From Terriglobia bacterium (GTDB lineage Bacteria > Acidobacteriota > Terriglobia > Bryobacterales > Bryobacteraceae): a DNA stretch of 64,000 nucleotides. The stretch covers positions 35,753-99,752 of the forward strand of contig JANYDS010000012.1 of assembly GCA_025363475.1 (NCBI GenBank). Direction: 5' to 3'. The notes under the pieces were generated by a model. It was not told where the DNA came from. It ran no database searches and worked only from the letters and a program-made list of their open reading frames with translations. Position numbers and translations under genes: made by a program. Below are positions 53,119 to 58,442 of this stretch, piece after piece. Positions within the stretch are counted from its first letter, which is position 1; each line of letters opens with the position of its first letter.

Positions 53119-53976
53119 CTACCGCTGAAAGGAATGGTAGTGAAATCCATCATCCTGCGTGCCGTTGTCAGCGACACCCATAGTAAGGGCTTGATCCAGC
53201 CGGAAGGTGATGACCGATTCCGCCGGAATCCTCAACTCGCGGCCGCGTGTGGTCATCTGCCCGACAGCGCCGCCCGCAGCACCAATGCCGGCGCCGATGG
53301 CAGCTCCCTTGCCGCCTCCGGCAATCGCGCCGATGATGGCTCCCAGAATCGCGCCGCCGCCCACGAATTCACCCGTGCGCTGGTTGGCCCCCACGCCGTT
53401 CCTTGAATTCGCTGACTGGATGCGTTCCGGAGATGCTTCCAGGGCGTAACGCTGGCCGTTGACCATGACTGACTCCAAGTCGACAACCAGATTCTGATCT
53501 TGCTCCACACGGACGATCAGTTCAACATTTGAACCGCGCGGGATAGCGAGTTCGCCATTGGAGCCGACCACATCCTGAGCGACAGTACCCGTAAAGATGC
53601 GACCATCCACCCGGTTGGCGTTGATGGTTTCGTCAGTCCGGATGGTTAGTGTGCTGCCACCCTCGATACGAGTCATGCGGGCGTACTGCAGACCCGGTTC
53701 GGGGGGCAGCTGAAATTCGGCGCGGCAGCCGTGGTCCACCCAGACACCACGCTCGTCCTGCCCCCAGGTATAGCCCTCAATACATCGAACGTTGCCCAGT
53801 TGCCGGGTGAGGCGAATGTCACCGCGGGACGTATCGGCATCACAGTATGCGATCTCTCCATTGTTGGATGAACAGGAGAAGGTCCCACCCGTGCGTTCCT
53901 GCGCCTGAACCGGCAGCGTAATAAACAAAGTGGTCAGAAGGGCCAGGCCCAGTGTTCGTGCGGCATTTTTTAGCAT
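53119..53976 (-). CDS. DUF3011 protein with glycine-zipper region
   Basis: TFSCSSNNGEIAYCDADTSRGDIRLTRQLGNVRCIEGYTWGQDERGVWVDHGCRAEF; GAIIGAIAGGGKGAAIGAGIGAAGGA. Confidence 0.85.
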   Translation of the reverse strand: MLKNAARTLGLALLTTLFITLPVQAQERTGGTFSCSSNNGEIAYCDADTSRGDIRLTRQLGNVRCIEGYTWGQDERGVWVDHGCRAEFQLPPEPGLQYARMTRIEGGSTLTIRTDETINANRVDGRIFTGTVAQDVVGSNGELAIPRGSNVELIVRVEQDQNLVVDLESVMVNGQRYALEASPERIQSANSRNGVGANQRTGEFVGGGAILGAIIGAIAGGGKGAAIGAGIGAAGGAVGQMTTRGRELRIPAESVITFRLDQALTMGVADNGTQDDGFHYHSFQR

Positions 53977-54718: not shown

Positions 54719-56440
54719 CTACGTCTTCACCTCGCCGTGCAGCAGCCCCAGAACTTCCTGGTAGAGCCGGTTCCTCACCTCGAAGCGATTCCCTGCCCGC
54801 GTCACGTAACGGACCACGATGTCGATTCCTGAAGGCCCGGGGCGAACGTCCACAGCGGGTTCGGTCGCGAAATGCCTGCTCACGCGTTTCCATTCCTGCT
54901 CCGCCTGTTGCGCATCCTTCGCCGTTTCTTCCACCACTTGGGCCCGTACCTGCTCAATCGTTTTGTAAGCATCCCGACCGGCCGGAATGCCGACCCGGAT
55001 CTCATCCCACATCCACTGCCCTGTAGTTGAGAAGTTAAAATACTGGCCCCTGATCGCGAAACTGTTAGTGAACGCCGTGCGGCGACCCGTAGGCCGGCCT
55101 TTATCTGAAGAATTTCCTGTTTCCAGCATGGATGTCCGGAAGATGCCGATACTTACGATCTCTCCTGCTATGCCGTTAATTTCAACCCAGTCGCCGATGC
55201 GGATACCATTCTTGCCCATGAGAACAAACCAGCCGAAGAAAGCGATGATGAAATCCTGCAGGGCAACAGTAAGGCCTGCTGTCGCCAAACCCAGGATAGT
55301 GGGCAACTGGTTCGGCACGCCGAACACCACCAGCAGAATCAACAGCGCACCAGTGAACTCGATCGCCAGCTTCACCATGGTGCCCAGCGTCTGCATTCGG
55401 CGCTGGTCGAGCGCAGGCCTGCGCGCCAGACGCACAGCGAGCTCATCAAGGACCAGAACACAGATGACAATAAACGCGATCAGAGCAAACGACTGGAGGA
55501 TCAGATGCCATGTCATCCGGTGCTGCAGCAACACCTGCGCAGCCCACGCGTCATAGGTTGTTGCCAGTTGACTTTGTGTTTCAATCCGGTCGTCAAAGAT
55601 ACCAAGTAACTGACTCCGGGCGGTCTGGCTGCTCAGTGTGGCCAGACGCGAAGCCTTGTCGCGCTTGTCTGCTGCTACGGCTTGAACACGCTCCAGCTGG
55701 TTATGCTGCATCGTCAAAGCTGCGGCATTATCGCGCGATCTCTTAGCCGCCTCGCCGAGCAGACGGTATCTGGTCCGCTGCTCAAACCACGCGCCGATAT
55801 GGGCGCTGACCGTGGCCCGCCCGGCGGCAACAACAGCCGACGGACCGGGATTGGTAACCTGCGCGTCATACTTTTTCAGCGAGGCTTCGTGGGCTGCTAA
55901 TTCCTCCTGAATGCGACCCCGCTGGTCACCTCCAGCACGCGTCAAATCCTGTTGCGCTTCCGTGAACTGATCGGTGTCAAGGCCCAGTTGCGCTTTCGCA
56001 AGGTCCAGATCGTCTTTGGGATCGTGTGCGGTCAACTGGCGGACCCGCACCTGATCGCCGGCAACGATTTCCTGCAGGCGCGCCACCCTTTGCGTCAGCG
56101 CCGTTGCTTCTTTTGAAAGCGGCTGGGTCTGGATGGTGGCCTGGCGAAGCGCAACCGCAAATGCCTGGTCCACTTCGTGATCGGCAAGATGCTCGGCCGT
56201 GCGAGCGTATTCGGATTCTTCCAGGGAGACGGCCAGAGCAGCCAGCGCCTCCGCGGTTCGCCACGGTTCAAGATTGACAATAGTCGGGGGGCCAGCGCCT
56301 GGATTCACCCGGTCCTGATGCCCGCGAAGGAAAGGCAAATGCTCCATCGCATCCCGCGTGTTCCACGAGAGAGCAATTAACACTGCCATCAGGCCCAGCA
56401 GGCCCGCTATGAAAACCCACCTAAATCTGCTCGCCATCAC
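54719..56440 (-). CDS. Mechanosensitive ion channel (MscS) family protein
   Basis: Long coiled-coil periplasmic N-terminus; MscS core LGLATAGLTVALQDFIIAFFGWFVLMGKNGIRIGDWVEINGIAGEIVSIGIFRTSMLE. Confidence 0.93.
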   Translation of the reverse strand: MMASRFRWVFIAGLLGLMAVLIALSWNTRDAMEHLPFLRGHQDRVNPGAGPPTIVNLEPWRTAEALAALAVSLEESEYARTAEHLADHEVDQAFAVALRQATIQTQPLSKEATALTQRVARLQEIVAGDQVRVRQLTAHDPKDDLDLAKAQLGLDTDQFTEAQQDLTRAGGDQRGRIQEELAAHEASLKKYDAQVTNPGPSAVVAAGRATVSAHIGAWFEQRTRYRLLGEAAKRSRDNAAALTMQHNQLERVQAVAADKRDKASRLATLSSQTARSQLLGIFDDRIETQSQLATTYDAWAAQVLLQHRMTWHLILQSFALIAFIVICVLVLDELAVRLARRPALDQRRMQTLGTMVKLAIEFTGALLILLVVFGVPNQLPTILGLATAGLTVALQDFIIAFFGWFVLMGKNGIRIGDWVEINGIAGEIVSIGIFRTSMLETGNSSDKGRPTGRRTAFTNSFAIRGQYFNFSTTGQWMWDEIRVGIPAGRDAYKTIEQVRAQVVEETAKDAQQAEQEWKRVSRHFATEPAVDVRPGPSGIDIVVRYVTRAGNRFEVRNRLYQEVLGLLHGEVKT

Positions 56441-56485: not shown

Positions 56486-56647
56486 CTAAGGAACGTTTTC
56501 AGCTTTACGTTTGCCTGAGCCCTGACATTGGGGACAGTCACCTGTACCTGCGCAGTTGAAGCACTGGCCTCCGTTACCGGTTCCCTTGCAGGTAGTGCAT
56601 TGACCTGTTGCGCCGCATACGTTGCATTTGACTCTTTCTTCATCCAT
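56486..56647 (-). CDS. 53-aa zinc-knuckle microprotein, four CXXCXGXG (DnaJ-type) motifs
   Basis: Minus strand ATG 56647: MDEERVKCNVCGATGQCTTCKGTGNGGQCFNCAGTGDCPQCQGSGKRKAENVP*; not in ORF track (below its length cut-off). Confidence 0.85.
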   Translation of the reverse strand: MDEERVKCNVCGATGQCTTCKGTGNGGQCFNCAGTGDCPQCQGSGKRKAENVP

Positions 56648-56696: not shown

Positions 56697-58442
56697 GTGA
56701 AGAGACTTTTAACTGCGACGCTCCTGTTAACGTGCGCGGCGCAGGCTCAACTGGTTAGCAATCCCAGTGCGGTTCCGCGAACCGGGCGAACGCCCGTCGT
56801 GTTTTTGAACGGGTTTGAAACCAACTGCCCAGGGGCTTCGTTCGCCCACGCTTTCGGCACAGCCGATCAGGTGTTGCAGGCCAACGGCATCGCCAGTGTG
56901 TTTTTCAATAACTGCGCCATACCAGGCGCACCATCCATCGAGAAGCTCGGCGCGGCATTCGGAACATTTCTCGCCAGCCTGACGTATGAAGACGGCCAGT
57001 CAATCGCCATCGTTGACGCTGTAAGCTACAGCATGGGCGGGCTGATTCTGCGCAGTTACCTGAGTGGCAAGCAGGAAGCGCAATCAACCTTTGCGCCCCC
57101 ATTCCCGACGCGGATCAGGAAAGCTGTCTTCATCGCCACACCCAATTTCGGAACCCCCGTGGCAGGCTTGGCGTTCGGCAGTGGCGTCCAAGCCGATGAA
57201 CTCTCCAGCGGTAGTAATTTTCTTATGGACCTGAACACGTGGAACCAGAACCACGATGATTTGAGGGGTATCGACGCCATCGCAATAGCGGGAACAGGTG
57301 GCACGGGCCTGGCATCACGGCCGGGCTTCGACGACGGACTGGTTCCACTTAGCAGCGGTTCGCTTCGCTTCTACCTGCCAGGCAGGACGCGTGTACTGCC
57401 CCTGTGTCATGTCGCCAGCCCCGGCTTATTAACGCTCACCGGTTTCTGTGCGCCGAATTCGAAAGGCATTGCCCGGGTTACAACTGCAGGCGATGACAAC
57501 GCGCGCATCATCGTCTCGTTCCTGACCGGAAGCGCCGAATGGCAACTAATCGGTACCAGCGCAGAACAAGCTCCCCTGTTACAAACCGGCAGCGGTATCC
57601 TCGTGCGGGCGCGCAACGCGACCGATGTCAGGATTGACCCCTCGTCAGTCGTCGCCACACCCGCCAGCGGACCGGCTAAAACCCTGAACATGTCGAACAG
57701 CGAGATCGCCTACACCGATTTGATTACGGCGGGCGCAGGCACCATAACCGTGAGTGCAGGGGCGCAGGGCTTCACCCAGTCGTATGACTTCCAGGCTGGC
57801 GGTGCGCAGGCTTTAGTGATTAAGCCCGGTCCCGCAGTGAAAGCGGTAGTGCCTGCTGCCGCTGTGGTCTTTCCGCTGGTTGTTGCACCCCGCATGATTG
57901 TTTCTCTTTACGGAAGCGGAATGGAGCAGGCCTCAGTGACAGTGAACGGGACCGCGGCCCCGGTGCTCTATGGTTCCGGGTTGCAGATCAACACTGTATT
58001 GCCCGCCGATACCGGGATTGGACTGGCCCGGCTGAACGTGCGGAATGCCGGGGGTTCACAGAGCATCAACGTGTTAACCGAGCCTGCGTTTCCTGCTGTG
58101 TTTTCCCTAAACCCGAACGGCGATGCGGCCGCACTCAATGCACTCACAAGCGTGATCGTTTCGCGGTCTAATCCTCTGCGCGCGGGCGATTATGTGGAGC
58201 TGTTCCTGACAGGTTTAGGCACCACACTCAGCCGTGACGCGTTCGATTGGGCGCTGCTTCAGCCGGTGGTAACTGTGGGCGGAATTGAGTGCCCGGTAAC
58301 CTTCGCCGGTGCCGCCCCCGGCTTCAACGGTCTCGATCAAATCAACTGCCGCATCCCGGCAGGCTTGGGGCTGCAGGATGCGGCGGTTATCGTTCGCAGC
58401 GGCGAGAGATCAAGCCCTGCAACAAAACTTGCCGTCCAGTAA
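56697..58442 (+). CDS. Secreted lipase-like alpha/beta hydrolase with TIGR03437-like C-terminal domain
   Basis: GTG start gives signal peptide VKRLLTATLLLTCAAQAQ; VSYSMGGLILRSYLSG nucleophile elbow; C-terminal VVAPRMIVSLYGSGM...VNGTAAPVLYGSGLQINTVLPAD...YVELFLTGLGTT...GAAPGFNGLDQINCRIPAG. Confidence 0.85.
   Translation: MKRLLTATLLLTCAAQAQLVSNPSAVPRTGRTPVVFLNGFETNCPGASFAHAFGTADQVLQANGIASVFFNNCAIPGAPSIEKLGAAFGTFLASLTYEDGQSIAIVDAVSYSMGGLILRSYLSGKQEAQSTFAPPFPTRIRKAVFIATPNFGTPVAGLAFGSGVQADELSSGSNFLMDLNTWNQNHDDLRGIDAIAIAGTGGTGLASRPGFDDGLVPLSSGSLRFYLPGRTRVLPLCHVASPGLLTLTGFCAPNSKGIARVTTAGDDNARIIVSFLTGSAEWQLIGTSAEQAPLLQTGSGILVRARNATDVRIDPSSVVATPASGPAKTLNMSNSEIAYTDLITAGAGTITVSAGAQGFTQSYDFQAGGAQALVIKPGPAVKAVVPAAAVVFPLVVAPRMIVSLYGSGMEQASVTVNGTAAPVLYGSGLQINTVLPADTGIGLARLNVRNAGGSQSINVLTEPAFPAVFSLNPNGDAAALNALTSVIVSRSNPLRAGDYVELFLTGLGTTLSRDAFDWALLQPVVTVGGIECPVTFAGAAPGFNGLDQINCRIPAGLGLQDAAVIVRSGERSSPATKLAVQ

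Follow-up and report, generated by a model that had tools for sequence, protein, structure and literature searches.

A conserved, free-standing microprotein of Bryobacteraceae with four DnaJ-like cysteine knuckles

Can the four cysteine pairs with trailing glycines that mark the cysteine-rich domain of DnaJ make up a bacterial protein of their own, and what would such a protein do? The question is raised by a locus in a window of 64,000 nucleotides (the whole stretch of DNA analysed here) from a Terriglobia soil bacterium of the family Bryobacteraceae, where an original prediction, made from the letters alone, placed a 53-aa ORF of four CXXCXGXG repeats on the minus strand. The ORF was found with exactly the sequence and strand claimed; its product is MDEERVKCNVCGATGQCTTCKGTGNGGQCFNCAGTGDCPQCQGSGKRKAENVP, and the gene is present in a single copy in its own genome. 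Three of the four repeats held up as strict CXXCXGXG (motifs 2-4), whereas motif 1, CNVCGATG, is degenerate, with Ala for Gly; relatives carry either residue there. The motifs are separated by 1, 4 and 1 residues, so that the protein consists of two tight knuckle pairs bridged by a short NGGQ loop. As had also been claimed, it contains no J-domain or substrate domain, and its orthologues are equally short; it likewise has no enzyme domain, membrane segment or signal peptide. The features of the ORF are as follows.

56486..56647, minus strand: microprotein ORF, 53 aa; ATG start, in agreement with the starts of the orthologues; TAG stop included
56603..56626, minus strand: knuckle 1, CNVCGATG, residues 8-15; degenerate, with Ala where the first Gly would stand; its two Cys unchanged across 12 sequences
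56576..56599, minus strand: knuckle 2, CTTCKGTG, residues 17-24; from the alignment
56564..56575, minus strand: putative hairpin loop, NGGQ, residues 25-28; invariant in 12/12 sequences and the lowest-confidence part of the structure model
56540..56563, minus strand: knuckle 3, CFNCAGTG, residues 29-36; from the alignment and a DNA pattern match
56513..56536, minus strand: knuckle 4, CPQCQGSG, residues 38-45; from the alignment and a DNA pattern match

The first relatives came from a single-sequence scan of the genome-contig collection, which yielded eight close ones, each of them in a Bryobacteraceae genome or an unclassified Acidobacteria MAG. Seven of the eight have intact short frames; the eighth (L039) carries a frameshift, and one of its cysteines is gone. 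An intact orthologue, with eight Cys and N25-G-G-Q28 invariant, was found in at least 11 other Bryobacteraceae genomes, and a profile search counted 13 carriers among 237 genomes of the family, in genera g1, g25, g36 and g59, of which g36 has the decayed copy. Conservation was assessed on 12 sequences, namely an eight-member alignment and four members from another genus, g59. All eight cysteines are kept in 8/8 aligned sequences and in the four g59 members. The NGGQ loop and the knuckle glycines except that of motif 1 are invariant across the eight-member alignment, apart from one motif-2 Gly that is Ser in two members; the g59 members retain the cysteines and the loop and vary at F30 and T35. 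Besides cysteine, K7, V10, N25, G26, G27, Q28 and N31 are identical in 12/12 sequences. Pairwise dN against the window copy was 0.19-0.34, and dS was saturated in most pairs; where dS was computable, dN/dS was 0.06-0.12, which indicates strong purifying selection on the coding sequence. The original prediction had staked itself on conserved cysteine pairs and on a dN/dS away from 1, and both were borne out. The ORF at 56486-56647 thus encodes a genuine, conserved microprotein under purifying selection, as had been expected of a stand-alone DnaJ-like knuckle protein.

These data also bear on the idea that the ORF is a chance frame or debris left by the assembly of a DnaJ gene, a danger that the original prediction had itself raised. 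The frameshifted copy is what such an idea could point to: at L039:3321-3490 and in L060, one lineage carries a decaying or mis-assembled orthologue in which one Cys is replaced by Arg. Against it, orthologues occur across many independently assembled genomes with dN/dS of at most about 0.12 where measurable, and neither a J-domain nor a substrate domain lies nearby. The DnaJ of the window genome is encoded at a separate locus (L002) as a 399-aa open frame with knuckle gaps of 8/14/5, compared with 1/4/1 here. Because the orthologues are short, free-standing and situated at unrelated loci, and because the gaps differ, the microprotein is not a DnaJ fragment, and the chance-frame or debris explanation is already refuted, with next to nothing left in its favour. 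A fusion seen in one genome was likewise rejected as a form of the protein: at L034:3179-3946 an upstream protein that is conserved in Bryobacteraceae and has no Pfam match reads on into the microprotein frame, but that upstream part is a separate gene elsewhere, the window genome included, so this is a single in-frame read-through.

Samples of 396 genomes of the phylum and 399 of the class gave, outside Bryobacteraceae, merely weak matches to other double-pair proteins. The patchy spread within the family, with one copy decayed, means that the microprotein is dispensable. A phage or plasmid origin is not favoured: the phage search gave no match, and the plasmid search one distant match, to a Streptomyces plasmid.

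The neighbourhood in the window comprises three genes.

54719..56440, minus strand: MscS-family channel gene, downstream; PF00924, 33.6 bits; neighbour of the microprotein gene in the window genome only
53119..53976, minus strand: gene for an exported DUF3011 and glycine-zipper protein; single copy in the genome; in L036 and L037 its homologue lies next to the gene for the microprotein
56697..58442, plus strand: divergent lipase-like gene with a TIGR03437 C-terminus; GTG start at 56697 inferred from a signal-peptide-like N-terminus

The original prediction suggested a possible tie of the microprotein to the MscS channel. The arrangement on which it drew is correct: the MscS-like ORF is co-directional and begins with GTG 45 bp past the microprotein ORF. 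The 45-bp gap holds no terminator-like site, so that co-transcription is possible in the window genome alone, and the microprotein could be pictured as an accessory factor of the channel, a co-transcribed adaptor or redox sensor. This picture fails in the other carriers, none of which has MscS beside the microprotein gene; neighbours differ in nearly every carrier. Conservation of the MscS neighbourhood had been proposed as a check. Orthologous MscS is missing from five of the seven microprotein carriers in the genus, and the orthologue occurs in three other genomes of the genus, in one of which (G132) the two genes lie on different contigs and in two of which (G125 and G138) the microprotein is absent. 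No comparable cysteine-rich ORF was found beside the MscS orthologues in the stretches examined. Given this uncoupled presence and absence and the lack of shared adjacency, a partnership is not supported: the MscS adjacency is a local accident, and an accessory role for the channel, already largely refuted, is hardly credible.

A better neighbour candidate is the DUF3011/glycine-zipper gene. It lies 2.5 kb from the microprotein gene on the same strand in the window genome, 15 bp upstream of it in L037, and overlaps its start by ATGA in L036. The gene was found in three of the seven g1 carriers, in all three near the microprotein. The tie is not obligatory, since other g1 genomes have DUF3011 and no microprotein, and the association, seen in three genomes of one genus, may reflect a single ancestral event. 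Elsewhere, the gene downstream of the microprotein encodes MurJ (L032), Psd (L038) or, in all four g59 genomes, YihY (BrkB family) together with an AI-2E-type permease. In several carriers no gene follows in the same direction (L033, which has an epimerase gene upstream and a convergent gene downstream, and L034). Most of the co-directional downstream genes encode envelope proteins (MscS, MurJ, Psd, YihY/AI-2E), though this is an impression formed post hoc. On the other side, the divergent lipase-like gene with its Solibacter TIGR03437 domain starts about 49 bp from the microprotein start, leaving a very short shared promoter region. In L057, L058, L059 and L061 a conserved TG(C/G)TATA(C/T)AAGGCATC stands directly before the GTG start; it resembles an extended -10 element, and the transcript may have a very short leader or none.

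How close is the microprotein to DnaJ itself? It shares the four cysteine pairs with trailing glycines, but is free-standing and lacks both the J-domain and the wide motif spacing of type I Hsp40. In the Pfam search that had been proposed as a check, DnaJ_CXXCXGXG (PF00684) gave 12.7 bits against a cut-off of 32.7, so that it is not a clean member of that family. The best Pfam score across members, down to E=2.7e-5, was to DUF7895 (PF25433), but the match covers only about 18 of the 75 positions in the model and remains below the cut-off; a sister microprotein reached 25.2 bits against 27.

Such sisters form, with the window family, a wider and mostly uncatalogued class. The DNA pattern CxxCxGxGxCxxCxGxG occurred at 39 places in 27 of 297 Acidobacteriota genomes, compared with 10 for a reversed control, and once in the window genome, where the control gave zero. 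Nearly all matches are short free-standing ORFs, in which the second pair is often slightly degenerate and the loop variable in length. The microprotein has the layout of this class, CxxCx[GA]xG-x-CxxCxGxG, a loop and a second such pair in a free-standing short ORF. Two sister families have fixed neighbours.

L085, L086, L087 and L123-L130, Acidobacteriota family f29: mutM-linked sister, 65-75 aa, directly downstream of mutM (Fpg glycosylase) in 10/10 carrier genomes
L083:4579-4779 (5 bp behind a MerR-type gene), L066, L067 and L070, the window's genus g1: merR-linked sister, behind a MerR-type regulator gene in 4/4 carrier genomes

By hhalign, the window family matched the mutM-linked and merR-linked sisters at 96.6% and 96.7%, respectively, and Acidobacteriota DnaJ cysteine-rich domains at 94.8%; these values are upper bounds because of the biased Cys/Gly composition, and convergence among the microprotein families and DnaJ domains is possible. 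No Pfam or NCBIfam model reached its cut-off for the class, no PHROG match was convincing, and a literature search, mostly without subscription papers, found no description of a bacterial double-pair microprotein class. Judged by its sequence, the microprotein represents a known zinc module in compact form, and its family has no curated model. With it, the DnaJ-type zinc module occurs as a conserved class of free-standing bacterial microproteins that goes uncalled by the curated models of Pfam and NCBIfam. Double-pair ORFs with no listed gene also occur on Streptomyces plasmids (NZ_CP030864.1 379561-379710, L105; NZ_CP109103.1 30168-30296; NZ_CP109276.1 303018-303146). In Prevotella and Alistipes (L040:4863-5141, L044:4548-5174), similar four-knuckle segments stand behind signal-peptide-like N-termini, so that exported versions may exist, and a larger protein in G283 (L106; open frame of 604 aa) contains at least six CXXCXGXG knuckles.

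Binding of zinc by the microprotein is likely, and a nested hairpin, in which one zinc ion is held by knuckles 1 and 4 and the other by knuckles 2 and 3, is the natural guess. The AlphaFold2 model, built with no metal, had a pLDDT of 61, as weak as expected from the missing metal and eight sequences, and is too weak to assign zinc pairs. Its only two strands, residues 5-7 and 46-48, are at the two ends of the chain, as a nested hairpin would need. Foldseek ranked two anti-TRAP entries, BSD2 and the cysteine-rich domain of E. coli DnaJ as its best four matches, none of them significant.

Two precedents from plants and algae are instructive. BSD2 holds two zinc ions and binds RbcL eight to eight, its homologues being reported as confined to plants and algae (PMC5859369), and ZnJ2, a J-domain-less protein with four CXXCXGXG motifs, binds zinc and prevents client aggregation (PMC5818400). 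Like them, the microprotein is small, with four CXXCXGXG-type knuckles and no J-domain, and the eight Cys of their hairpin, which in BSD2 holds the two zinc ions, are present, with the weak model consistent with such a fold; unlike them, it is bacterial, has a core of about 45 residues with gaps of 1/4/1, and has no link to plastids or Rubisco. We tentatively favour, at somewhat less than even confidence, the reading that the microprotein is a two-zinc hairpin which, like plant BSD2, serves as a small chaperone or adaptor that binds clients. The NGGQ loop would close a compact hairpin that the chain forms round its two zinc ions; in form this would be a relative of BSD2 and of the cysteine-rich domain of DnaJ, only shorter. 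In the cytoplasm it would bind a single client, or a small number of them, stoichiometrically, and so hold its clients in a reduced or soluble state, or in one fit for assembly or export. Stoichiometric binding appears the likeliest mode because the protein has nothing beyond the knuckle module to act with (no other domain, membrane segment or signal peptide) and because BSD2, ZnJ2 and anti-TRAP share protein binding by a zinc hairpin. Clients would probably be lineage-specific and sometimes encoded next door, with DUF3011/glycine-zipper (three g1 genomes) and YihY with the AI-2E-type permease (g59) as candidate partners for the window family, and MutM and MerR-like proteins as direct client candidates for the sisters; such fixed neighbours offer a route to the function of the zinc-knuckle module without Hsp70. 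The conserved Cys and Gly residues, purifying selection, the hhalign match to DnaJ domains and lineage-fixed neighbours speak for a client-binding role. Because those neighbours vary by lineage and fit housekeeping zinc or redox roles equally, because a sequence rich in Cys and Gly can seem closer to DnaJ in profile comparisons than it is, and given the poor model and patchy distribution, we infer this role with low certainty.

The nearest fold match suggests another role, that of a small oligomerising zinc protein that binds a regulatory or RNA-binding protein and alters expression of its targets. Anti-TRAP (RtpA, PF15777), a bacterial protein that requires zinc to oligomerise and function and acts by binding one regulatory protein (PMC2896485), is likewise a stand-alone CXXCXGXG protein of 53 aa, and the sister behind the MerR-type gene would fit such a role. 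Anti-TRAP has two knuckles per chain, however, compared with four here, and the weak NCBIfam match of 11.8 bits falls far below the cut-off of 65. TRAP (PF02081) is missing from the window genome by a search that finds it in B. subtilis, so membership in the anti-TRAP family was rejected, and none of the orthologue neighbourhoods has a conserved regulator gene. We therefore regard an anti-TRAP-like regulator as unlikely. The microprotein might instead be a zinc store or a set of redox-active cysteines with no specific client, since it is almost nothing but knuckles and has unrelated neighbours in many genomes; the DnaJ cysteine-rich domain does have thiol-reductase activity (PMC5818400). ZnJ2 has none (PMC5818400), and the seven invariant non-cysteine residues exceed the needs of a bare metal store, which makes a buffer an improbable alternative to the client-binding reading.

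The invariant turn invites a last comparison. Type II pamtides (cysimiditides) form zinc hairpins from two CXXCXGXG motifs, and a methyltransferase encoded next to them turns the Asp-Gly of the turn into aspartimide and isoAsp (PMC13001092, PMC10787088). The microprotein is likewise a small CXXCXGXG protein, presumably a zinc hairpin, with a succinimide-prone residue before Gly in the turn, but this is an invariant Asn-Gly where the pamtide FcaA has Asp-Gly, and it has four motifs instead of two. No PIMT-like methyltransferase was recognized among the orthologue neighbours, and PF01135 had no match on contig C87; with this neighbour and the conserved hairpin Asp both missing, membership in the cysimiditides was rejected. 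As a long shot, Asn25-Gly26 could be a built-in deamidation site, making the protein self-maturing or a timed switch: folding round zinc would strain the loop, giving succinimide and then isoaspartate with no dedicated methyltransferase. The site would then parallel the Asp-Gly turn of the type II pamtides, but without an enzyme.
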